From an uncultured Pelagibacteraceae bacterium (lineage in GTDB: Bacteria > Pseudomonadota > Alphaproteobacteria > Pelagibacterales > Pelagibacteraceae), in contig CABXSF010000006.1 in NCBI GenBank assembly GCA_902514805.1, forward strand, positions 1 to 43,283: DNA of 43,283 nt, given 5' to 3'. Made by a program: the position numbers and the translations under genes. The notes below the pieces were generated by a model that saw only the letters and a list, made by a program, of their open reading frames with translations, was not told where the DNA came from and ran no database searches. This document shows, piece by piece, positions 21,903-42,161 of the stretch. Each line of letters begins with the position of its first letter. The stretch's first letter is position 1.

Positions 21903-23522
21903 TTACATATTCCCATATCTTGGTCCACCACTTCCCTCTGGCGTTACCCAAGTTATGTTCTGAGAAGGTTCTTTAATATCGCAAGTTTTACAATGAATGC
22001 AGTTTTGAGAATTTATTACAAATTTAGGTACTTCATTTTCAACTTGCACTTCGTATACACCAGCAGGACAATATCTTTGTGCAGGCTCATCAAATCTGTC
22101 TAAGGTATACCTTATTGGTAAGTCTTTATCTTTCAATTTTAAATGGACTGGTTGATTATCTGTATGATTGGTCCCTGTTAGATAAACTGAACTTGTTTTA
22201 TCGAATGTAATTATATTATCAGGTTTTGGATAATCTATCACTGGCATTTCATTTGCGGGTTTTAAAGTTTCGTGATCTGCGTGTTTATGTTTAAGTGTGA
22301 ATGGTAATTTCCCTCTGAATATTATTTGATCTATACCTGTGAAAATAATCCCCAAGATTAATCCCCAACTAAAACTTGGTTTTACATTTCTTGCTTCAAA
22401 TAATTCTTTATGTGCCCAACTTTTTTGGAATTTTTCCTCATAAATAGAAAGATCTTTTGAATCATTAAGATGCTCAATTATAGTTTCAGCTGCAACTATT
22501 CCACTTTTCATTGCAGTATGAGAACCTTTTATTTTTGGCATATTTAGTGTACCTGCATCACATCCGATTAAAAGGGCACCAGGCATAAACATTTTAGGTA
22601 AACTTTGAAAACCTCCTTCAATTAAAGCTCTAGCCCCATAAGATATTCTTTTTCCTCCATCTAACATTTTTTTGATAGCCGGGTGAGTTTTAAATCTTTG
22701 AAATTCATCAAAAGGTGACAAGTGAGGATTTTTATAATCTAAACCTATAACATACCCTATATAAAGCTCTTTATTTTCGGCATGATATACAAAGCTTCCT
22801 CCATAAGTATTTTTATCTAATGGCCAACCAGCTGTATGCATTACTAAACCCTCCTGATGGTTTTTTTCATCTATCTTCCAGATTTCTTTAAAACCAATTC
22901 CATATTGTTGAGGGTCCTTTCCGTTATCTAAGTCAAACTTTTTAATTAATTGTTTTCCTAAATGACCTCTGCAACCCTCTGCAAATACTGTAACTTTCGC
23001 ATGCAGTTCCATTCCAGGCTCATAACCATCTTTTTTATTTCCTTCTTTATCTAAACCCATGTCTTGAGTTATAACACCCTTAACTGATCCATCCTCTTTA
23101 TATAAAATTTCTGAAGCTGGGAAACCTGGAAAAATCTCTACACCTAATGCTTCCGCTTGTTCGGCAAGCCATCTACATAAATTGGCAAGACTAATTATAT
23201 AATTCTTATGGTTTTGCTGGACTTTTGGTAGTAACCAAGTCGGCCAGCTAAATGAATTTTTCTTTCCTAAAAAAAGAAATTTTTCTTTTGTTACTTTAGT
23301 CTTAATTGGTGCATTGAGATCTTTCCAATTAGGAACTAATTCATCTAATGCTCTAGTCTCAAAAACATTCCCAGACAAAATATGTGAACCAATTTCTGCA
23401 CCTTTTTCTAATACACACACGTTAACGTCAGCATTTAATTGCTTTAGTTTAATAGCTGTAGCAAGACCTGATGGTCCTCCACCGACAATAACAACATCAT
23501 ATTCCATAACTTCTCTAGTCAT
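21903..23522 (-). CDS. etfD: electron transfer flavoprotein-ubiquinone oxidoreductase
   Basis: ETF-QO passes electrons from reduced ETF to the quinone pool at the membrane. The 539-residue protein has the N-terminal FAD dinucleotide motif VVIVGGGPSGLATAIKL (about 10-26). It also has a typical GCDAGTLNMPKIKGSHTAMKSG segment, and a C-terminal 4Fe-4S site formed by Cys in YCPAGVYEV and the three in NCIHCKTCDIK. The frame begins MTREVMEYD, and the second Met is an equally good start. It is the last gene of the DMGDH-etfB-etfA unit, three bases after the etfA stop. Confidence 0.96.
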   Translation of the reverse strand: MTREVMEYDVVIVGGGPSGLATAIKLKQLNADVNVCVLEKGAEIGSHILSGNVFETRALDELVPNWKDLNAPIKTKVTKEKFLFLGKKNSFSWPTWLLPKVQQNHKNYIISLANLCRWLAEQAEALGVEIFPGFPASEILYKEDGSVKGVITQDMGLDKEGNKKDGYEPGMELHAKVTVFAEGCRGHLGKQLIKKFDLDNGKDPQQYGIGFKEIWKIDEKNHQEGLVMHTAGWPLDKNTYGGSFVYHAENKELYIGYVIGLDYKNPHLSPFDEFQRFKTHPAIKKMLDGGKRISYGARALIEGGFQSLPKMFMPGALLIGCDAGTLNMPKIKGSHTAMKSGIVAAETIIEHLNDSKDLSIYEEKFQKSWAHKELFEARNVKPSFSWGLILGIIFTGIDQIIFRGKLPFTLKHKHADHETLKPANEMPVIDYPKPDNIITFDKTSSVYLTGTNHTDNQPVHLKLKDKDLPIRYTLDRFDEPAQRYCPAGVYEVQVENEVPKFVINSQNCIHCKTCDIKEPSQNITWVTPEGSGGPRYGNM

Positions 23523-23525
23523 GAA

Positions 23526-24479
23526 TTATTTTTGAATAGTGTTAAGTTTATTTAATTCTTCTAAAAATTGCGGAAGAGCTTCAAACAAATCTGCCTCAAG
23601 CCCATAATCTGCTATGCTAAATATTGGTGCTTCACCATCTTTATTTATCGCAACAATAATTTTGCTCTCTTTCATTCCAGCTAAATGTTGAATGGCTCCA
23701 GAAATACCAACTGCTATGTACAAATCAGGCACAACAACTTTTCCTGTTTGCCCTACTTGATGATCGTTTGTAATATATCCTGCATCTACAGCTGCTCTTG
23801 ATGCTCCAATGGCTGCATTCAACTTATCCGCAATTGCTGAAATTAATTTAAAATTATCTGAATTTTGCATTCCTCTACCACCTGAAATTACAATTCTTGC
23901 AGTACCTAACTCAGGTCTATCCGATTTTATTTCCTCTCTTTTCACAAACTTTGAATTTTTAAAAGCTTCACCTGGTTCCGATTTCACAATTTCTGCAGAA
24001 CCTCCGGTAGCTAGTGCAGGCTCAAAAGAAGTTGGTCTTATAGTGACACACTTCTTTTTGTCGTTACTTTTTACTGTTGCAAAAGCGTTTCCTGCGTAAA
24101 TTGGACGTAAAAAGGTATCGGCTGAAATAACTTTAATGACATCACTCACCTGAGATGTATCTAAAAGAGCTGCTATCCTAGGCATTAAATTTTTTCCAAA
24201 TGTGTTTGCTGAGCAAACTATATGTGAATATGTGTCTACATGCTTAATTATTGCTGCAGTATAATTTTCTGCAATAAAGTTTTCATAAATTTCGTTATCG
24301 ACATGGATAACTTTTTTTACTTTTGGTATTTCAGACGCAGATTTAGCAACACTCTCTGATTTATTACCTAAAACTAAGATATGGAGGTCTTCATCTATTT
24401 TGCAAGCAGCTGATACTGCATTGTAAGTGAAGGGTCTTAATTCTTTATTGTTATGTTCTGCAATTAATAAAACTGACAT
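23526..24479 (-). CDS. etfA: electron transfer flavoprotein alpha subunit
   Basis: ETF alpha holds the FAD. The 317-residue protein has the C-terminal FAD domain: VISGGRGMQNSDNF, AAIGASRAAVDAGYI, DHQVGQTGKVVVPDLYIAVGISGAIQHLAGM, and an acidic end with ADYGLEADLFEALP. Together with EtfB it accepts electrons from the dimethylglycine dehydrogenase encoded upstream and donates to ETF-QO encoded downstream. Its ATG directly abuts the etfB stop, indicating tight co-translation. Confidence 0.96.
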   Translation of the reverse strand: MSVLLIAEHNNKELRPFTYNAVSAACKIDEDLHILVLGNKSESVAKSASEIPKVKKVIHVDNEIYENFIAENYTAAIIKHVDTYSHIVCSANTFGKNLMPRIAALLDTSQVSDVIKVISADTFLRPIYAGNAFATVKSNDKKKCVTIRPTSFEPALATGGSAEIVKSEPGEAFKNSKFVKREEIKSDRPELGTARIVISGGRGMQNSDNFKLISAIADKLNAAIGASRAAVDAGYITNDHQVGQTGKVVVPDLYIAVGISGAIQHLAGMKESKIIVAINKDGEAPIFSIADYGLEADLFEALPQFLEELNKLNTIQK

Positions 24480-25229
24480 TTAAATTACTTTAGCCTCATT
24501 TTTTAATTTTTGAACCAATTCTGATACATTTGCGACTTTAATTCCAGCTTTTCTTTTTGGTGGTTCTTCTACCTTAATTTGCTCGATTCTCGCTTTGGTA
24601 TCAACCCCTAAATCTGAAGCATTTATCTGCTCTAGTGGTTTTTTCTTTGCTTTCATTATATTGGGTAATGAAGCATATCTGGGCTCATTTAATCTGAGAT
24701 CGCAGGTAACAATTGCGGGTATGTTTACTTCAATTGTTTCTAATCCTTCATCAACCTCTCGAGTAACTTCAAGCGATGAATCTTTAACATTAATTTTGGA
24801 TGCAAATGTCGCTTGTGGCCAACCAAGTAAAGCTGCCAACATTTGACCTGTTTGGTTACAATCATCATCTATTGCTTGTTTGCCCATAAAAACTAAATCA
24901 GGTTTTTCTTTATCTACTATCTTTTGCAAGATTTTTGAAACGGCCAAAGGCTCAACTACACCTTCAACTTTTACATGTATTCCTCTGTCAGCACCAACCG
25001 CAAGTGCCTTCCTCACAGTTTCTTGAGCTTTTTCCTCACCAATAGTTATCGCTACAATTTCTTTTGCTTTTCCAGACTCTTTAATTTTTACTGCTTCTTC
25101 AACAGCGTTATCGTCAGGAGGATTAGTAGACATTTTGACATTATCTGTAACTACTCCCGTTCCATCTTCTTTTACTCTTACTTGAACGTTGTAATCTATA
25201 ACTCTTTTTACTGCTACTAAGATTTTCAT
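24480..25229 (-). CDS. etfB: electron transfer flavoprotein beta subunit
   Basis: ETF beta is 249 residues here and carries the AMP site. Typical segments are [44 protein letters not shown], and the recognition loop region [40 protein letters not shown] matches the ETF beta signature. Its start overlaps the DMGDH stop by one base (TAATG) and its stop abuts etfA. This placement strongly suggests that this ETF serves dimethylglycine or sarcosine oxidation, perhaps alongside acyl-CoA dehydrogenases encoded elsewhere. Confidence 0.96.
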
Positions 25230-27661
25230 TATGCTCTCAACAATTCATTTTTTGGATCATAAGGACTTTCTTCAAGAATAGTTGCCTCATGCGTTTTTCC
25301 CAATATGTCAATTTTAAGTTTCTGACCTACGTTTGCTAATTCTGGTTTAACCATTCCAAGTGCTATAGATTTTCCTAATCTAAAACCAAAATCTCCACCA
25401 GTGGCTCTTCCAATACAAGTACCATTTTCATAAATTGGATTATTTCCCAACACATCAGCATCAGTAATATTATGAACTTCTAGTGTCACTAATTTATTAC
25501 TAAATCCTTTTTCTCTCCATTTGTTTAATGCATCTAAGCCAATAAAATTTCCTTTATTTGGATGTATAAATCTATCTAAACCACTTTCGTATGGAGAATA
25601 TTCTATAGATAATTCTGTTCCAACTAGTTTATACGATTTCTCAACTCTTAAACTATTCATTGCTCTTATACCATAAGGTTTTAGATTTAAATCTTTACCA
25701 GCATCCATTAATTTATCAAAAATATGATTTTGATATTCAATTGGATGATGTAATTCCCAACCTAATTCTCCAACAAAGTTTACTCTCATTGCGTTCACAG
25801 GAGCATAACCCACGTCAACGTTTTTAGCACTTAGCCATTTAAAATTTTCATTTGAAAAATCATCTTTTGATACTCTTGTCATTAATTCTCTTGCTTTTGG
25901 TCCAGAAACAACCAACACACCCATGCTATTAGTTAAATTTTCGAATTGAACAGATCCATCACTAGGCATCCATCTTAATATCCAATCATGATCAAGTCTT
26001 TGAAATACACCTGCAGACACTAAATAAAAACTATCTTCAGACTCTCTCATTATTGTAAATTCCGAATGAACACCACCTTTGGTATTTAAGGCGTGACACA
26101 AATTTATCCTTCCAACTTTTTTTGGAAGTTTGTTTGCAACGAGTTTATCCAAAAACTCCTCTGCGTTTGGTCCTTTAATTCTACATTTAGCAAATGCACT
26201 CATGTCTAACAAACCTACGTTTTCTCTTACATTTTTGCATTCTTTCTCAATAGCTTGAAACCATTTTGATCTTCTAAATGACCAGTGATCTTTTTGCTCC
26301 ATTCCATCAGTAGCAAAAAAGTTTGGTCTTTCCCAACCAAATTTTTGACCAAAAACTGCTCCAAGTTTTTCCATTCTGTCATAACATGGGGCTGTTCTTA
26401 GTGGTCTTGCCGCTGGTCTTTCTTCATCCGGGAAATGAGTTATAAAAACGTGGCTGTATGCCTCTTCATTTTTTTCTTTAAGATAAGCTTTCGAACAATA
26501 ATCTCCATATCTTCTTGGTTCAACACCAAGCATATCAATTGTTGGTTCACCATCTACGATCCATTCTGCTAATTGCCAACCAGCACCACCAGCTGCAGTT
26601 ATTCCAAAACTATGACCTTCGTTTATCCAAAAGTTTTTTAGTCCCCATGCTGGTCCTACAATCGGATTTCCATCTGGAGTATAACAAATTGCACCATTAT
26701 AAACTTTTTTCACTCCTACCTCCCCAAAGGCTGGCACTCTATGTATTGCACCTTCTATATGTGGAGCGAGTCTATCTAAATCTTCTTGAAATAATTCATA
26801 TTCAGAATCTTTTGAAGGTCCATCAACATAACATGCGGGAGCTCCGTCTTCATAAGGGCCTAATATTAAACCTCCAGCTTCTTCTCTCATATACCAACGG
26901 CTATCACTATCTCTTAAAACTCCCATTTCAGGTAAACCCTCTTTTTTTCTTTTTTGAATTTCAGGGTGTGGTTCTGTAACAATATATTGATGTTCTACAG
27001 GAATAACAGGGATGTCTAGACCAACCATTTTTCCAGTTTGTCTAGCAAAATTTCCTGAGCAAGAAATTATATGTTCACATTCAATAGTACCTTTATCAGT
27101 TTCTACTACCCATCCATCTTTAGTTTGTTTCATACCAACAACTGTGGTGTTTCTATAAATCTCCGCACCTCTATTTCTTGCACCAGTGGCCAAAGCTTGT
27201 GTTAAATCAGCAGGTTGAATATATCCATCCTCAGGATGTTGAATTGCTCCAACTAAATCAGATGTATTACATAATGGCCAAATTTCTTTTACTTGATCAG
27301 GCGTCAAAAACTTAACATCAACACCAATTGTTTGTGCAACTCCTGCATATTGAAAGTACTCATCCATTCTATCTTTATTATTTGCAAGTCTAATATTTGA
27401 AACAACACTGAAGCCTACGTTCTTACCTGTTTCTTCCTCTAATTTTTTATATAAATTGACTGCATATTTGTGGAGTTGTCCAACGGAATAACTCATATTA
27501 AAAAGTGGTAATAAACCTGCAGCGTGCCAAGTTGATCCAGACGTAAGTTCTTTTCTTTCAACTAAAACAACGTCTGACCAGCCTTTTTTAGCGAGATGAT
27601 AAAGGGCACTAACCCCTACAACACCTCCACCAACTATAACGACCTTTGCTTTAGATTTCAT
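25229..27661 (-). CDS. dmgdh: dimethylglycine/sarcosine dehydrogenase-type flavoprotein with GcvT domain
   Basis: An 810-residue two-part enzyme. The N-terminal FAD oxidoreductase (about 1-375) has [17 protein letters not shown] and [10 protein letters not shown]; His46 there matches the histidine that covalently links FAD in dimethylglycine and sarcosine dehydrogenases. After a linker, the GcvT-like folate domain (about 430-800) has [18 protein letters not shown] and [12 protein letters not shown]. It would remove a methyl group from an N-methylglycine, capture formaldehyde as methylene-THF, and pass electrons to the ETF encoded next. Family members act on dimethylglycine, sarcosine or related amines, so the exact substrate is not certain. 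It leads an operon with etfB, etfA and ETF-QO. Confidence 0.9.
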
Positions 27662-32789: not shown

Positions 32790-33518
32790 ATGAATTTTTC
32801 TATAGAAATTGGGCCTAAAACAGACCTGTCAACTCTGCCGGAACTAAAAGATGTATATATAACAATGTTGCCAGGCGGAGATTTTAAAGAGACAGCATAT
32901 CAAGCAGTCCAACTAGTCAAAAAAGGCTTCAACCCTATCCCTCATTTTCCTGCTAGATCAATGGAGAATGAACACCAGTTAAAAGAGTATGTAAGCATCT
33001 GTAAAGATGGAGGGGTAAAGCAAGCTTTAATTATTGGAGGGGGTCGTGATCCAGCTGGTAAATTTGAGAGCTCGTTTCAACTTTTAGAGACTGGTTATTT
33101 TGAGAAGATGAAGATAGGAATTGCTGGACATCCCGAGGGGAGTCCTGATATATCCGATTCAGATTTGGAAAAAGCTATGAAAGATAAAAAGCCCTATGCT
33201 GATTATATAGTAACTCAATGGTTACTTGATCCTCAGCCAATCATAGATTTTATTTCTAAACAGACAGTACCAGTGCATGTTGGAATTACTGGGCCTCTTA
33301 AGATATCAAGCTTAATTAAATTTGCTAATATAGTGGGTGCAAAAAATTCCATAAATTTTCTTAAATCTAATTTTAGTAAGGCTTTAGATTTATTGAAACC
33401 TAAAGACCCAAATGATTTAATTGATAAATTAAAAGATCATACAGAACACTTTCATATTTATACATTTGGAGGACTTAAGGAAACAAACAAATGGTTAAAG
33501 GATAATAACTATGCCTAA
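32790..33518 (+). CDS. metF: MetF-like methylenetetrahydrofolate reductase
   Basis: A 242-residue TIM-barrel protein, shorter than classical MetF (about 290). It has the conserved folate/FAD patterns: FNPIPHFPARSM, ALIIGGGRDPAGKFESS, IGIAGHPEGSP, YIVTQWLLDPQPIIDF and VPVHVGITGPL. Classical MetF makes 5-methyl-THF. In O-demethylation clusters such as Sphingobium ligM-metF, the MetF works in the opposite direction, oxidising 5-methyl-THF to methylene-THF. Its stop overlaps the start of the GcvT-like demethylase by 8 bases, which argues for the oxidative role. It is divergent from the methyltransferase gene with 76 bases between. Confidence 0.85.
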   Translation: MNFSIEIGPKTDLSTLPELKDVYITMLPGGDFKETAYQAVQLVKKGFNPIPHFPARSMENEHQLKEYVSICKDGGVKQALIIGGGRDPAGKFESSFQLLETGYFEKMKIGIAGHPEGSPDISDSDLEKAMKDKKPYADYIVTQWLLDPQPIIDFISKQTVPVHVGITGPLKISSLIKFANIVGAKNSINFLKSNFSKALDLLKPKDPNDLIDKLKDHTEHFHIYTFGGLKETNKWLKDNNYA

Positions 33519-34968
33519 AAAAAAGAAAAAAAAGAAAGTAAGTTCGAAAAAAAGAAAATCAAAAAAAATAGCCAAAGTAAAATCAAATAAAGTCAGTAAG
33601 CCAATTTCAAAAGGCAGAATAATTGAAAAAATTGATTATTCAAAAGTTTCTCACTCTACTGCTGTTGATCAATCAGATAGACATGTTCCTTACAATTTAA
33701 GACAAAGTGGTCCAACTCAAGTTGAAATGTTAATTTCAACACGAGTAAGAAAATCTCCTTACTGGCATTTATCTATGAAAGCTGGATGTTGGAGAGCAAC
33801 TGTTTACAATAGAATTTATCATCCACGTGGTTATGTAAGACCTGAAAAAGGTGGAGCAATGGGCGAATATGAAGCTATTAAAAAACACGTAACAATGTGG
33901 AACGTAGCAGTTGAAAGACAAATAAGAGTAAAGGGTCCAGATGCTGAAAAATTTACTGACTATGTTATTACGAGAGATGCATCAAAAATTTCTCCGATGC
34001 GTGCTAGATATGTAATTTTATGTAATTACAAAGGTGGTGTCTTAAATGATCCTATATTATTAAGAATATCTGAAGATGAATTTTGGTTTAGTTTATCGGA
34101 TAGTGATATTGGTCTTTATCTACAGGGTGTTAACGCTGACAAAAGATTTAATGTAGAAATAGATGAAATTGATGCATGTCCAGTACAAATTCAAGGTCCT
34201 AAATCAAAGGCGTTAATGAATGATTTAATTGGAAATCAAGTTGATTTAGACAATATGCCTTTTTATGGATTAGCTGAAGCAAAAGTTGGTGGAAGAAGTT
34301 GTGTTATTTCACAATCAGGTTTTTCAGGTGAAGCTGGATATGAAATTTATTTAAGAAATGCAACTTTATATGCAGAGGATATGTGGAATGCAGTTTTAAA
34401 AGCTGGAAAAAAACACAATCTTATGGTTATCGCTCCTGCTCACCACAGAAGAATACAAGCAGGTATTTTATCTTGGGGTCAAGACATGGATAACGAGCAT
34501 AATCCATTTCAATGTAACTTAGGTTATCAAGTTTCATTATCTGGAAAAGGTGTTTGGGAGAAACAAGGAGACTATGTTGGTAAAGAAGCCTTGGAAAAAA
34601 TGAAAAGCGAGATATCTTCTGGAGGAAAACCTTACAAACTTCAACTAGTAGGAATGGAACTGGGAGGAAAACCAATTGAAGAATATGCACCAGATTTTTG
34701 GTTAATCTCAGAAGACGGAAAAAATCCAGTAGGATTTGTTACATCTCCTTGGTACCATCCTGAAAAAAGAACTAATATCGCAATGGGGTACGTGCCTTTC
34801 GATGGAAATTTGAATAAAAATGGATTTCCAATTGGTAAAGTTGGTAGAAAATTTAAAATTCATCTTCCAAAGAAATATTGTGAAAAAGGAAATGAACCAG
34901 TTAATGCTGTGATCGTAGATATACCTTTCACAGAGTCGTACAATCCTAATACAAGAGAAGCTAAATAA
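33511..34968 (+). CDS. GcvT/DmdA/LigM-like THF-dependent demethylase with poly-lysine N-terminus
   Basis: A 485-residue member of the GcvT superfamily. Conserved folate-domain elements are VEMLISTRVRKSPYWH (near residue 71), RQIRVKGPDAEKFTDYVITRD, PMRARYVILCNYKGGVLNDPI, QSGFSGEAGYEIY, and a C-terminal barrel with MGYVPF. Length and sequence are closer to LigM-type O-demethylases (about 470) than to DmdA (about 369). The first 37 residues are almost all Lys, Ser, Arg and Val (MPKKKKKKKVSSKK...). The start at ATG 33511 has a good AAGGA site and overlaps metF by 8 bases. It probably moves a methyl group onto THF; the substrate is unknown. Confidence 0.82.
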   Translation: MPKKKKKKKVSSKKRKSKKIAKVKSNKVSKPISKGRIIEKIDYSKVSHSTAVDQSDRHVPYNLRQSGPTQVEMLISTRVRKSPYWHLSMKAGCWRATVYNRIYHPRGYVRPEKGGAMGEYEAIKKHVTMWNVAVERQIRVKGPDAEKFTDYVITRDASKISPMRARYVILCNYKGGVLNDPILLRISEDEFWFSLSDSDIGLYLQGVNADKRFNVEIDEIDACPVQIQGPKSKALMNDLIGNQVDLDNMPFYGLAEAKVGGRSCVISQSGFSGEAGYEIYLRNATLYAEDMWNAVLKAGKKHNLMVIAPAHHRRIQAGILSWGQDMDNEHNPFQCNLGYQVSLSGKGVWEKQGDYVGKEALEKMKSEISSGGKPYKLQLVGMELGGKPIEEYAPDFWLISEDGKNPVGFVTSPWYHPEKRTNIAMGYVPFDGNLNKNGFPIGKVGRKFKIHLPKKYCEKGNEPVNAVIVDIPFTESYNPNTREAK

Positions 34969-34973
34969 ATTAT

Positions 34974-34999
34974 AAAAAGGGGGTAATCCCCCCTTTTTT
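34974..34999 (+). terminator. rho-independent terminator of the metF-demethylase unit
   Basis: A G5/C6 stem (34979-34983 and 34988-34993) with a short TAAT loop follows an A-run and is followed by six T. It lies six bases past the demethylase stop. Confidence 0.92.
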
Positions 35000-35122: not shown

Positions 35123-35668
35123 ATGTTTGGATTTTTTTTAGAATTAATTTTCAGATCAATAAAACTTGACAAAAAACTTTATAGAGAAGTTAAGACATAT
35201 TCGGAAGTTTCAATTTATTTCGCTGCAATTATAATGATACTAGATGGGGTTGCAGGAGCGATTGCTACTAATAATTTTTACAAAACTTCACTAAGTCTTT
35301 CTGCATTAACTGCTATCTTAACTTGGTTTTTTTGGGCAGTTTTGATATTTACAATCGGTTCCAAAATTTTTCCTGATAAAGATACTAAAGTCACCTTTAA
35401 AAAAATTTTAATTGCAGTAGGTATTGCTCATGCCCCAGGATTACTTAGATTTATAGCATTGACACCTGACTTAGTAATGCCAATAATTTTTTTAACTCAA
35501 TTTTGGATATTTGCCTCATTAATAATTTCAACTAAAGAGGTATTAAATTTTAAATCAAATTTTAAAGCTTTTGGAATAGTTTTTTTATCATTTTTAATAT
35601 TAGCAATTTTATCTGTTTCTTTTGTGATGAGTAGATTAAATAGTTTACCTATCAGTAATATAACTTAA
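35123..35668 (+). CDS. YIP1-family integral membrane protein
   Basis: A 181-residue protein with about five hydrophobic helices. The N-terminal amphipathic stretch KLDKKLYREVKTYSEVSIYFAAIIMILDGVAGAI and the later KKILIAVGIAHAPGLLRFIALTP match bacterial YIP1-family proteins. The function is not known in bacteria. It follows a 34-residue membrane peptide with no gap. Its stop overlaps the stop of the opposing zinc-ribbon-like ORF by three bases. Confidence 0.75.
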   Translation: MFGFFLELIFRSIKLDKKLYREVKTYSEVSIYFAAIIMILDGVAGAIATNNFYKTSLSLSALTAILTWFFWAVLIFTIGSKIFPDKDTKVTFKKILIAVGIAHAPGLLRFIALTPDLVMPIIFLTQFWIFASLIISTKEVLNFKSNFKAFGIVFLSFLILAILSVSFVMSRLNSLPISNIT

Positions 35669-39267: not shown

Positions 39268-40377
39268 TTATTTTTTTTCTATTACGAATAATTCGTTTTT
39301 AAAGTGTAATCCTTTAAATTTATTAACAATGTTTTGTACAACTTTTTGATAATTTTTGTGTTTTTCCGCTTTCATTATTTGTTCGTCCGAAATTTGATTA
39401 ACATAAACTGCAGCATTCCATGCAGAAAATATTAATGATGTAGCTATTCCACCACTAATTTCGTTAGGTAGTGCTCTTAAAACATAACTAATTTTTTTTA
39501 CTTTATGGAATTTTAAAGTTTTTAAAAAGGGTTTATCTGATTTTGACTTAATATATTTTTCAATAGATGAATACAAATATGGAAATGGATCTTCTTTAGG
39601 CCAAATCTTTTTAATTATTTTATTTGCTGGATCTCCACCACAAGCATGTACCACAACAAGCTTCCCCTTTTTTGCTAAGGATTTTATCATAGGTTCAATT
39701 ACGTATTTTACCTTCTTTTCAGCAGTAACTCTTGATCTATAAGGTTGAGAAGCAATAATTAAATCATAATCTGTCTTTCCATTGTTTTTATTAGGTATAA
39801 CATCCTTAAGAACAAATTCTTGGTCTTTTCTATAGATTACAATTACAGATGGTTCTTTGTAAGTTGATGTACCTGTTTTTGGATTAGTTTCAACTTGCCA
39901 TTTTTTAGCTAGAAATTCTTGATTAAGCTTTCTTAATTGATTTGAAAAATCTAAAGAGGAGTTTCCTTTTAGCTTTACAACTTTCCAATTCATTTTTTTT
40001 TGTTTTTTAAGATTTTTTGATTTTAAAGACGTCGACTCTACATAATTTAAATTAGAAATGACAAAAACAGTATTTTTATGCTCAGCAAATCTGTCAGGTA
40101 ATTTTTCTAAACCTAATCTTACATCTTCCATGCTTATTTCTTTTGTTGAAACGAGCAGAGGTATATTTGGCATTTTTTGATGACATTGTCTCATCACATT
40201 CATTAGTAAAGATCCATCTCCCATTCCAGCATCAAAAATTTTTAAAGCAGGGTTTTTAGGTTTCAAATTCTGTACAATTGGTTTTAAAGCATCGGCAATT
40301 TTATTTTTTTCATTAGTTGTGGTTACAAAAAGAAGATATTTTTGTCTATTATCAAAAAACCTGAAATTTTTTTTCAT
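39268..40377 (-). CDS. SAM-dependent methyltransferase-like protein
   Basis: A 369-residue protein with a SAM-binding-like motif KIFDAGMGDGSLLMNVMRQ near residues 46-64 and an internal SQPYR (about residue 206) in the place of a catalytic NPPY-like loop. A Gly-rich KGKLVVVHACGGDP stretch near residue 230 looks like the strand-5 region. Methyltransfer is likely but not certain, and the substrate is unknown. It is divergent from fhs with 95 bases between the starts. Confidence 0.55.
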   Translation of the reverse strand: MKKNFRFFDNRQKYLLFVTTTNEKNKIADALKPIVQNLKPKNPALKIFDAGMGDGSLLMNVMRQCHQKMPNIPLLVSTKEISMEDVRLGLEKLPDRFAEHKNTVFVISNLNYVESTSLKSKNLKKQKKMNWKVVKLKGNSSLDFSNQLRKLNQEFLAKKWQVETNPKTGTSTYKEPSVIVIYRKDQEFVLKDVIPNKNNGKTDYDLIIASQPYRSRVTAEKKVKYVIEPMIKSLAKKGKLVVVHACGGDPANKIIKKIWPKEDPFPYLYSSIEKYIKSKSDKPFLKTLKFHKVKKISYVLRALPNEISGGIATSLIFSAWNAAVYVNQISDEQIMKAEKHKNYQKVVQNIVNKFKGLHFKNELFVIEKK

Positions 40378-40472: not shown

Positions 40473-42161
40473 ATGAAAAAATTTAAATCTGACATTGAAA
40501 TAGCTAGAAATAGTAAACTTAAACCAATTTCAAAGATTTTAAAAAAAATAAATGTACCTGATAATCCAACTGCTTTTAGCCCTATGGGGAGACATATAGC
40601 AAAAATAAATTTTGAATTTTTAAATAAACTTAAAAAGAAAAAAGATGGTTATCTTATACTAGTAACAGCTATTACTCCAACACCGGCAGGAGAAGGTAAA
40701 ACAACTACCTCTGTTGGTCTAAATGATGGTTTAAATAAAATTGGAAAAAAATCTATTGTTTGCCTTAGAGAACCCAGTCTTGGTCCTTCGTTTGGTATGA
40801 AAGGAGGAGCAGCCGGTGGCGGGTATGCTCAAGTTGTTCCTATGGAACAGATAAATCTTCATTTCACTGGAGATTTTCATGCGATTACATCAGCACATAA
40901 TTTGTTATCTGCAATGATTGACAATCATATTTACTGGGGAAACAAACTTAATATTGATGAAAAAAAAATAGTTTGGAAAAGAGTGATGGATATGAACGAT
41001 CGTGCTTTAAGATTTATTGACATTAATACCAGTGGAGTTGCAAAAGATTTTAAAAGAGTAGATGGTTTTGATATTACTGTAGCTTCTGAAGTCATGGCCA
41101 TTTTTTGTTTGGCTAAAGATTTGAATGATTTAGAAAAAAAAATTGGAAACATAACTATCGCTTATAATAAAGAAGGTCAGCCAATTTTTGCAAAAGATTT
41201 GAATGCCCACGGTCCAATGACTGTTCTTTTAAAAGAAGCAATAAGACCCAATGTTACCCAAAGCTTAGAACATAACCCAGCTATTATTCATGGAGGTCCA
41301 TTCGCTAATATTGCTCATGGATGTAATTCTGTTATTGCCACAACGGCAGCTCTAAAGCTATCAGACTTCGTTGTTACTGAAGCAGGATTTGGTGCAGACC
41401 TTGGTGCTGAAAAATTTTTAGATATCAAATGTAGGAAGGCAGGATTAAAACCTAGCTGTGTTGTAATTGTTGCAACTATTAGAGCATTAAAGATGCACGG
41501 AGGTGTGGAAAAAGAAAATCTTAAAAAAGAAGACACAGCCTCTTTGAAAAAAGGTTTAATTAATTTAGAAAGACATATCTTAAACATTAAAAAATTTGGT
41601 CTAGAGCCAATTGTAGCAATTAATCATTTTGCTTTAGATACAAAAAAGGAAATAGATGTTGTTCTCAATTTTTGTAAAGATATGAAAGTTCAGGTAAGTG
41701 AATGTAAACATTGGGCAATGGGTGGCAAAGGCACAACTGATCTGGCTAGAAAAGTTGTCAAAATATGTAAAGGCTCAAAGAAAAGTAATTTTAAATTTTT
41801 GTACCAAGATAGTTTAAATCTTTGGGATAAAATTGAAAAAATTGTTAAGGAAATTTATAGAGGCGATAGAGTTATTGCAAATGAAGAGATAAAAGAAAAA
41901 CTTAAAGTTTTTGAGAGTAATGGCTACAAAAATTTACCTGTTTGTATAGCTAAAACCCAATATAGTTTTTCAACTGATCCAAAGTTAAAAGGAGCTCCGT
42001 CGAATCATGAAATTCCAATAAGAGAAGTGAGATTATCATCAGGAGCTGAGTTTATTGTGGTTGTTTGTGGATCAATAATGACTATGCCTGGTCTACCCAA
42101 AGTTCCTGCTGCAAATAATATTAAACTAAATAAAAAAGGTGATGTTGAGGGACTATTTTAG
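40473..42161 (+). CDS. fhs: formate-tetrahydrofolate ligase
   Basis: Fhs interconverts formate plus THF plus ATP with 10-formyl-THF. The 562-residue protein has the P-loop-like [16 protein letters not shown], the [18 protein letters not shown] active-site stretch, and [14 protein letters not shown]. In this organism it would connect the C1 units from DMGDH and the MetF-GcvT-like pair to formate release with ATP gain, or supply formyl groups for purines (purEK lies close by). Its stop is one base from the convergent gpsA stop. In Sphingobium a formate-THF ligase (ligH) is linked to ligM and metF, a parallel to this window. Confidence 0.97.

Follow-up and report, generated by a model that had tools for sequence, protein, structure and literature searches.

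A Short MetF and a DmdA-Superfamily Protein of SAR11 as a Candidate Cobalamin-Free Entry Step of Glycine Betaine Catabolism

Gene Pair and Layout of the Window

The window analyzed here is a 43,283-nucleotide stretch of DNA from an uncultured SAR11 bacterium of the Pelagibacteraceae (GenBank assembly GCA_902514805.1, contig CABXSF010000006.1), and the subject of the analysis is a pair of forward-strand genes in it. The first open reading frame (32790–33518, 242 amino acids) encodes a short MetF of the methylenetetrahydrofolate reductase (MTHFR) family, and the second (33511–34968, 485 amino acids) encodes a GcvT/DmdA-superfamily protein (PF01571, 142 bits). Both frames were found as described in the original prediction, and positions 33511–33518 were common to them, which gives an 8-bp overlap. 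The pair was followed by a G-run/C-run hairpin and a T-run (34975–34999, forward strand), which, judged by eye, had the look of an intrinsic terminator. Residues 1–43 of the second protein (33511–33639, forward strand) formed a lysine-rich N-terminal extension. This poly-lysine head, to which attention had been drawn at the outset, was present, but its length differed between the closest SAR11 relatives, and some others started just before the conserved core. It was rejected as a functional feature because of this variability.

A dimethylglycine dehydrogenase-type enzyme (DMGDH) dependent on flavin adenine dinucleotide (FAD) was located on the opposite strand (25229–27661), and 5.1 kb separated its nearer end from MetF. 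It contained DAO, FAO_M, GCV_T and GCV_T_C domains and headed one tight reverse-strand run (21903–27661) with electron transfer flavoprotein (ETF) beta (etfB, 24480–25229; PF01012), ETF alpha (etfA, 23526–24479; PF01012 and PF00766) and ETF-ubiquinone oxidoreductase (ETF-QO, 21903–23522; PF05187 and PF21162). Mitochondrial dimethylglycine dehydrogenase uses the same electron route. The gene of the formate-tetrahydrofolate ligase (fhs, 40473–42161, forward strand) started 5.5 kb 3' of the pair, as predicted, with 867 bits for PF01268 and 878.7 bits for NF010030 (cut-off 652).

The same pair was described as SAR11_1264/SAR11_1265 by Sun et al. (2011; PMC3160333), with DMGDH as SAR11_1253 and fhs as SAR11_1285; the order, including the position of the window DMGDH, matched that of the window. 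The substrate was called unknown in that article and 3-methylmercaptopropionate (MMPA) was guessed, whereas glycine betaine is proposed here. The gene pair has been known since 2011, and the proposed glycine betaine role is new. Among the matches listed in a literature search, which covered few subscription journals, there was no assay of SAR11_1265 and no tetrahydrofolate (THF)-dependent glycine betaine methyltransferase of its family.

Family Membership and Phylogeny of the GcvT-Family Protein

The best NCBIfam model for the GcvT-family protein was DmdA, the demethylase of dimethylsulfoniopropionate (DMSP), with 243.5 bits (NF009133), below the cut-off of 410. The GcvT models NF001567 and TIGR00528 gave 155.3 and 132.9 bits, both below their cut-offs of 300 and 235.85, and the LigM and DesA models gave 34.0 and 48.4 bits, with cut-offs of 580 and 800. 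The nearest solved relative was DmdA (PDB 3tfh). The genome of the window (902 kb, 70% complete) had eight GCV_T matches, seven of them above the cut-off. A separate DmdA (at C5) shared 32% identity with the window protein. The GCV_T match of a 411-residue frame elsewhere in this genome was better than that of the window protein.

A tree of 64 rows of GCV_T-superfamily proteins was calculated; its deep joins are unsure because long branches were flagged by the tree tool. The proteins of SAR11, of other Proteobacteria and of haloarchaea formed a single clade with a support of 100/100, and the next neighbour of this clade was a 53% relative (locus L051, genome G016; 100/99). The DmdA and DmdA-like rows formed their own clade (98/96) without the window protein, and the split between the two was starred in the tree. 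The GcvT, DMGDH and SoxA domains made up a third clade (100/92). The window protein was thus placed outside both the DmdA and the GcvT clades, the two groupings that had been considered as possible refutations at the outset, and its scores were below the cut-offs of both families. The haloarchaeal rows were nested inside the proteobacterial rows (91/95, unstarred), which suggests that a gene of this family moved between the domains of bacteria and haloarchaea.

The original prediction had likened the protein to LigM and the locus to a system for methoxy-aromatic compounds. An aryl O-demethylase of the LigM/DesA type would share the superfamily and the coupling logic of LigM and S6MTHFR of Sphingobium SYK-6, in which a GcvT-derived demethylase is coupled to a reverse-running MTHFR (PMC12585457), and the window MetF is related to the solved MTHFR 7xg9. 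However, the substrate of that system is aromatic, and the window protein scored far lower with LigM and DesA than with DmdA. The sole LigM-like row (L222, which failed to reach the LigM cut-off and has one in-frame stop) was remote and on a long branch. An aromatic-ring enzyme was the best model for no scanned neighbour; where a Rieske gene was present, GbcA ranked first and aromatic dioxygenases next, all below cut-off. A LigM/DesA relationship was dismissed on the basis of the hidden Markov model scores and the tree. Only the likeness at the superfamily level was retained, and the methoxy-aromatic reading is scarcely credible.

The N179-D180-P181 motif of the window protein, shared with DmdA, was aligned to D95-D96 of the Thermotoga T-protein, in which D96 is presumably catalytic. 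The N-terminal motif VDQSDRxVPxNLRQSG was conserved in the window family and absent from the DmdA rows. Phe271, which was invariant in alignment A1, would correspond in our own mapping to the DMSP-specific Trp of DmdA (W171 in the alignment of PMC7487153). This Trp is an unclean marker, as Tyr occupies the position in the annotated DmdA of L165 and Trp in the 53% relative. The protein thus resembles DmdA in the GcvT-derived, FAD-free fold, in the N-D-P motif and at many other positions, with 5-methyl-THF as the expected product, and differs from it in overall identity, clade, Phe271, N-terminal motif and gene neighbours.

Conservation of the Pair in SAR11

A set of 61 SAR11 genomes was used, namely, the genome of the window and 60 relatives. 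In 52 of them, the GcvT-family protein was found with an identity of at least 75%, and one more had a fragment of it; it was not found in the other eight of the 61, most of which are incomplete. The gene neighbourhood was evaluated in the best 80 of at least 589 SAR11 loci, which came from named single cells and metagenome-assembled genomes, and many of which end early. MetF was directly upstream of the GcvT-like gene in all 80 loci, and the 8-bp overlap was kept in 79, the remaining locus being counted as -41. Such retention indicates that the adjacency and the overlap are not due to chance.

In 12 of the 80 loci, MetF was immediately preceded on its own strand by the genes of an OpuAC binding protein and of a ProW-type permease, and this transporter occurred anywhere in the stretch in 13. 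The OpuAC match was to PF04069, "glycine betaine transport system" (E 6e-44), and the ProW and BHMT models matched the SAR11 neighbours below their own cut-offs. A BHMT-like homocysteine methyltransferase was near seven loci, as was a gene of the DMGDH/sarcosine dehydrogenase (SARDH) type (801 amino acids). The window-type DMGDH was near 23 loci, fhs near 31 and SoxA near two. Of the 43 loci whose flanks each extend for 9 kb or more, 20 had at least one of the transporter, BHMT, SARDH, DMGDH and SoxA. A genomic association with DMGDH and betaine uptake was seen in part of the loci.

Homologs and Gene Neighbours Outside SAR11

The class sample comprised 289 alphaproteobacterial genomes including that of the window, and the gene was present in 11 of the other 288 (one a congener) at 64–84% identity. 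The phylum sample of 397 genomes gave four carriers outside the class and one distant relative, and homologs with 49–57% identity were found in 16 records of haloarchaeal plasmids, of which 13 were examined and 12 scored for neighbours. A DMGDH-type gene was no farther than about 10 kb away in 10 of the 12 alphaproteobacterial carriers (window included), within the stretch in nine and about 9 kb off by coordinates in G184; that of L042 and L043 was divergent, with 40% identity to the haloarchaeal query. MetF was near five of these 12 loci, SoxA near five and fhs near two. For the four other loci of the phylum, MetF, fhs and a DMGDH-type gene (31%) were each near three. The distant relative (L156) had MetF on one side and a DMGDH-type gene on the other, and the 53% relative had none of these neighbours.

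Among the 12 scored haloarchaeal loci, MetF was near 10, a DMGDH-type gene near nine, IlvA near seven, GlyA near four and fhs near three, and FolD was found in some. None of the five counted genes was near L151 or L163. L148 and L149 encoded BCCT transporters, and according to the annotation so did L162 and L226; MetF and a pair of FAD oxidoreductases were further present in L226, an unscored locus. That haloarchaea have genes resembling dimethylglycine oxidase close to BCCT transporters has already been noted (PMC3102087). Over all 30 target loci, window included, fhs was near the gene in eight, consistent with the proposed link of fhs to the same one-carbon pathway. As a separate observation, L151 and L163 represent a divergent haloarchaeal subclade (49–50% identity to the window protein) near sulfur-handling genes.

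The 22 DmdA and DmdA-like loci that served as controls had a different surrounding: MetF was near none, a partial DMGDH-type match and a SoxA-like match near one each, and DmdB/C/D-family matches near 11. These controls bear on the suggestion of Sun et al. (2011) that the protein acts at the second demethylation of the DMSP pathway, converting MMPA to mercaptopropionate. DmdA is indeed the closest solved relative, and the metagenome abundance of the gene was similar to that of dmdA (PMC3160333). However, DmdB/C/D-family matches were rarer and weaker at the target loci (6 of 30, 23–32% identity) than at the controls (11 of 22, up to 50%, with L165, which supplied the queries, set apart in the identity range; some target stretches were longer than the controls), and the homologs in haloarchaea lie in betaine-type islands. 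Moreover, MMPA is a thioether and a poorer methyl donor than an onium compound. The conversion of MMPA is consequently judged to be highly improbable.

Two further groups of DmdA-like genes were noticed. In L166, L208, L211 and L212, a DmdA-like clade apart from DmdA stood beside a dmdB-like CoA ligase, in L166 also with OsmC and enoyl-CoA hydratase, and this clade is perhaps another sulfonium demethylase. In a sister SAR11 family (e.g., G706:C5 and G709:C3), a DmdA-like gene (35%) adjoined a gene of the homocysteine S-methyltransferase type.

Complementary Distribution With MTTB

The distribution of the gene was compared with that of MTTB (PF06253, the family of MtgB) in the 289 genomes. A match to the window DMGDH at E 1e-200 or better was taken as DMGDH and was found in 58 genomes; MTTB was called in 61. 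The gene was present in 12 genomes, two of which (G030 and G259) missed the DMGDH threshold. Among the 58 DMGDH genomes, MTTB was present in 45 of the 48 without the gene and in 1 of the 10 with it (p 2e-7), and the sole case, G247, was a weaker match (8.6e-78). One of the three genomes with neither was G016, which has the 53% relative. When the genomes were collapsed by family, MTTB was present in 27 of 29 without the gene and 1 of 8 with it (p 2.6e-5). These tests correct only partly for ancestry, MTTB is broader than MtgB, and GbcA and BHMT were outside the 289-genome survey. In at least 19 genomes, MTTB started no more than 12 kb from DMGDH. The near exclusion of MTTB by the gene among DMGDH genomes indicates that the two seem to be alternatives for one step before DMGDH.

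MetF and the Direction of the Methyl-THF Step

The window MetF reached 22.5 bits with the Pfam MTHFR model (PF02219), just under the cut-off of 24, and 27.5 bits with TIGR00677, far under its cut-off. It was counted as an MTHFR-family member by its match to PDB 7xg9, "methylenetetrahydrofolate reductase" (E 6.5e-32), which we take to be the SYK-6 enzyme. An N-terminal Glu (E6) was aligned in all 11 MetF proteins compared, and by our own mapping it plausibly corresponds to Glu9 of hMfr, the key Glu of flavin-free MTHFR (PMC11094777). The short MetF family was present in 52 of the 289 alphaproteobacterial genomes. The window-type gene or MTTB occurred in 48 of these 52 and in 24 of the 237 genomes without the short MetF; that is, the short MetF tracks the genes of methyl-THF-producing demethylases, which fits the earlier proposal of a THF-dependent demethylase feeding MetF.

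No MetH or MetE above the curated cut-off was found in the 61 SAR11 genomes. A MetF acting solely in methionine synthesis is disfavoured by this result, and since no methyl-THF-using methionine synthase is evident in SAR11, MetF most plausibly runs in the oxidizing direction, as has been reported for S6MTHFR in SYK-6 (PMC12585457). A search for a canonical MetF elsewhere in the genome of the window gave no PF02219 match, which says little because the genome is 70% complete and the same search missed the window MetF itself.

Mausz et al. (2025; PMC12478193) reported in PNAS that the B12-dependent MtgBCD demethylates glycine betaine in Ruegeria and proposed that SAR11 alone, which lack MetH, MetE and MtgBCDE, use BHMT; in this scheme, glycine betaine is demethylated in SAR11 by BHMT, a role still unproven, and elsewhere by a B12 enzyme. 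BHMT (SAR11_1173) would likewise take the first methyl group of glycine betaine but with homocysteine as the acceptor, and the pair would then be accessory. The closeness of the SAR11 BHMT to the human enzyme and the lack of MtgC in SAR11 speak for this view, whereas the role of BHMT is stated in the same article as not experimentally validated. Furthermore, bhmT lies 3' of a SAM-V riboswitch and its mRNA rose 34-fold in sulfur-limited growth (PMC5069961, Table 1), from which we infer a role in methionine supply rather than bulk catabolism, and the distribution of the gene and MTTB would be left unexplained. A BHMT-only route therefore carries a very low probability. In the same study (PMC5069961), the mRNAs of SAR11_1264/1265 were at 0.10–0.20 of the control in stationary phase, and the protein values were 1.29–1.46, in columns that are hard to assign.

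Proposed Pathway and Its Evaluation

According to the linkage with DMGDH, SoxA and MetF in Alphaproteobacteria, the haloarchaeal plasmid islands, the loci with betaine-type transporters, the replacement pattern with MTTB, the lack of MetH and MetE and the different DmdA-type control loci, the pair is probably the entry step of glycine betaine catabolism, consisting of a B12-free glycine betaine:THF methyltransferase and a methyl-THF oxidase. The gene identities, the conserved coupling, the phylogeny, the linkage and the complementary distribution with MTTB were observed, and from them we infer the substrate, the chemistry and the direction in which MetF runs. The GcvT-family protein, a DmdA-type, FAD-free T-protein, would take a single methyl group off glycine betaine and pass it to THF, yielding dimethylglycine and 5-methyl-THF. 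MetF would oxidize 5-methyl-THF to 5,10-methylene-THF, from which FolD, Fhs (at the end of the THF oxidation branch) and formate dehydrogenase would give formate, CO2 and energy. DMGDH, for which the window also encodes a dedicated ETF and ETF-QO, would perform the next step, and sarcosine oxidase/dehydrogenase would complete the conversion of dimethylglycine to glycine. The proposed reaction and pathway position are those of MtgBCD, whose MTTB genes also stand beside DMGDH, but the proteins are unrelated, and MtgBCD needs cobalamin and reactivation (PMC12478193). The original prediction had spoken of an unrecognized one-carbon source; the proposed compound is a known one, and it is the enzyme that had gone unrecognized.

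The protein may instead demethylate another onium compound, such as proline betaine, carnitine or a sulfonium such as DMSP, and the linkage with DMGDH and Sox would then reflect general methylated-osmolyte islands. OpuA and BCCT transporters carry several osmolytes, and the window protein belongs to the DmdA superfamily. Against this alternative, the recurrent partner DMGDH acts on the very compound that demethylation of glycine betaine yields, the distribution is nearly exclusive with MTTB, Phe occupies the position of the DmdA-specific Trp, and DmdA proper is a separate gene of the same genome. Another onium substrate is accordingly regarded as unlikely. The literature search for homarine as a substrate gave nothing bearing on the gene.

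Several observations weigh against the glycine betaine assignment. In 23 of the 43 SAR11 loci flanked by 9 kb or more on each side, none of the transporter, BHMT, SARDH, DMGDH and SoxA genes was found, and the stretches L044, L045, L046, L051, L148, L151, L152 and L163 had no DMGDH neighbour. A GbcA-like Rieske oxygenase (391 amino acids, 123 bits, cut-off 670) was near 29 of the 80 SAR11 loci (e.g., L116:1866–3038), another with 132 bits was in a Haloarcula locus (L150:20028–21164) with a like-annotated gene in L164, and none was in the window. This oxygenase is the main confounder: in its carriers it might perform the first demethylation, and it may be a second betaine demethylase or have a different betaine as its substrate. 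Some loci have M24 and creatininase-family genes close by, which, like the Rieske gene, hint at a mixture of substrates and count in favour of the other-onium alternative. Partial MetH-type matches were present in 49 and partial MetE-type matches in 24 of the 61 SAR11 genomes. The former covered mostly the N-terminal homocysteine methyltransferase part, and the latter were core-MetE-type proteins of about 351 amino acids, chiefly of the sister family f227 and strong only there, which could make methionine from an unspecified donor. Moreover, Sun et al. suggested for the pair a role in the DMSP pathway, at the second demethylation, and SAR11 also has BHMT (PMC3160333). A failure to use betaine has been reported for two haloarchaea (PMC3102087), which may or may not carry the gene.

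A broader proposal is held with moderate confidence. A cobalamin-free, O2-independent glycine betaine demethylase would stand in for MtgBCD in SAR11, in several other Alphaproteobacteria and, by inter-domain transfer, in haloarchaea; in the most numerous heterotrophs of the ocean, glycine betaine would enter catabolism mainly through this enzyme, with BHMT serving methionine supply only. SAR11 are among the most numerous ocean bacteria, and glycine betaine is a common salt-protectant. If the proposal is true, a B12-free THF route frees glycine betaine oxidation in SAR11 from methionine demand, the marker genes for glycine betaine flux in ocean surveys change, and genes annotated as "aminomethyltransferase" in archaea and bacteria gain a testable substrate.

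Additional Observations

Two proteins of the window had no Pfam match, one of 369 amino acids (39268–40377, reverse strand) and one of 181 amino acids (35123–35668, forward strand). Homologs or equal-length counterparts of the latter followed the GcvT-like gene in L040, L116, L113, L120 and L068. Finally, the gene was found with 84% identity at the edge of a 4-kb contig labelled "viral" (L225), which is perhaps host DNA.

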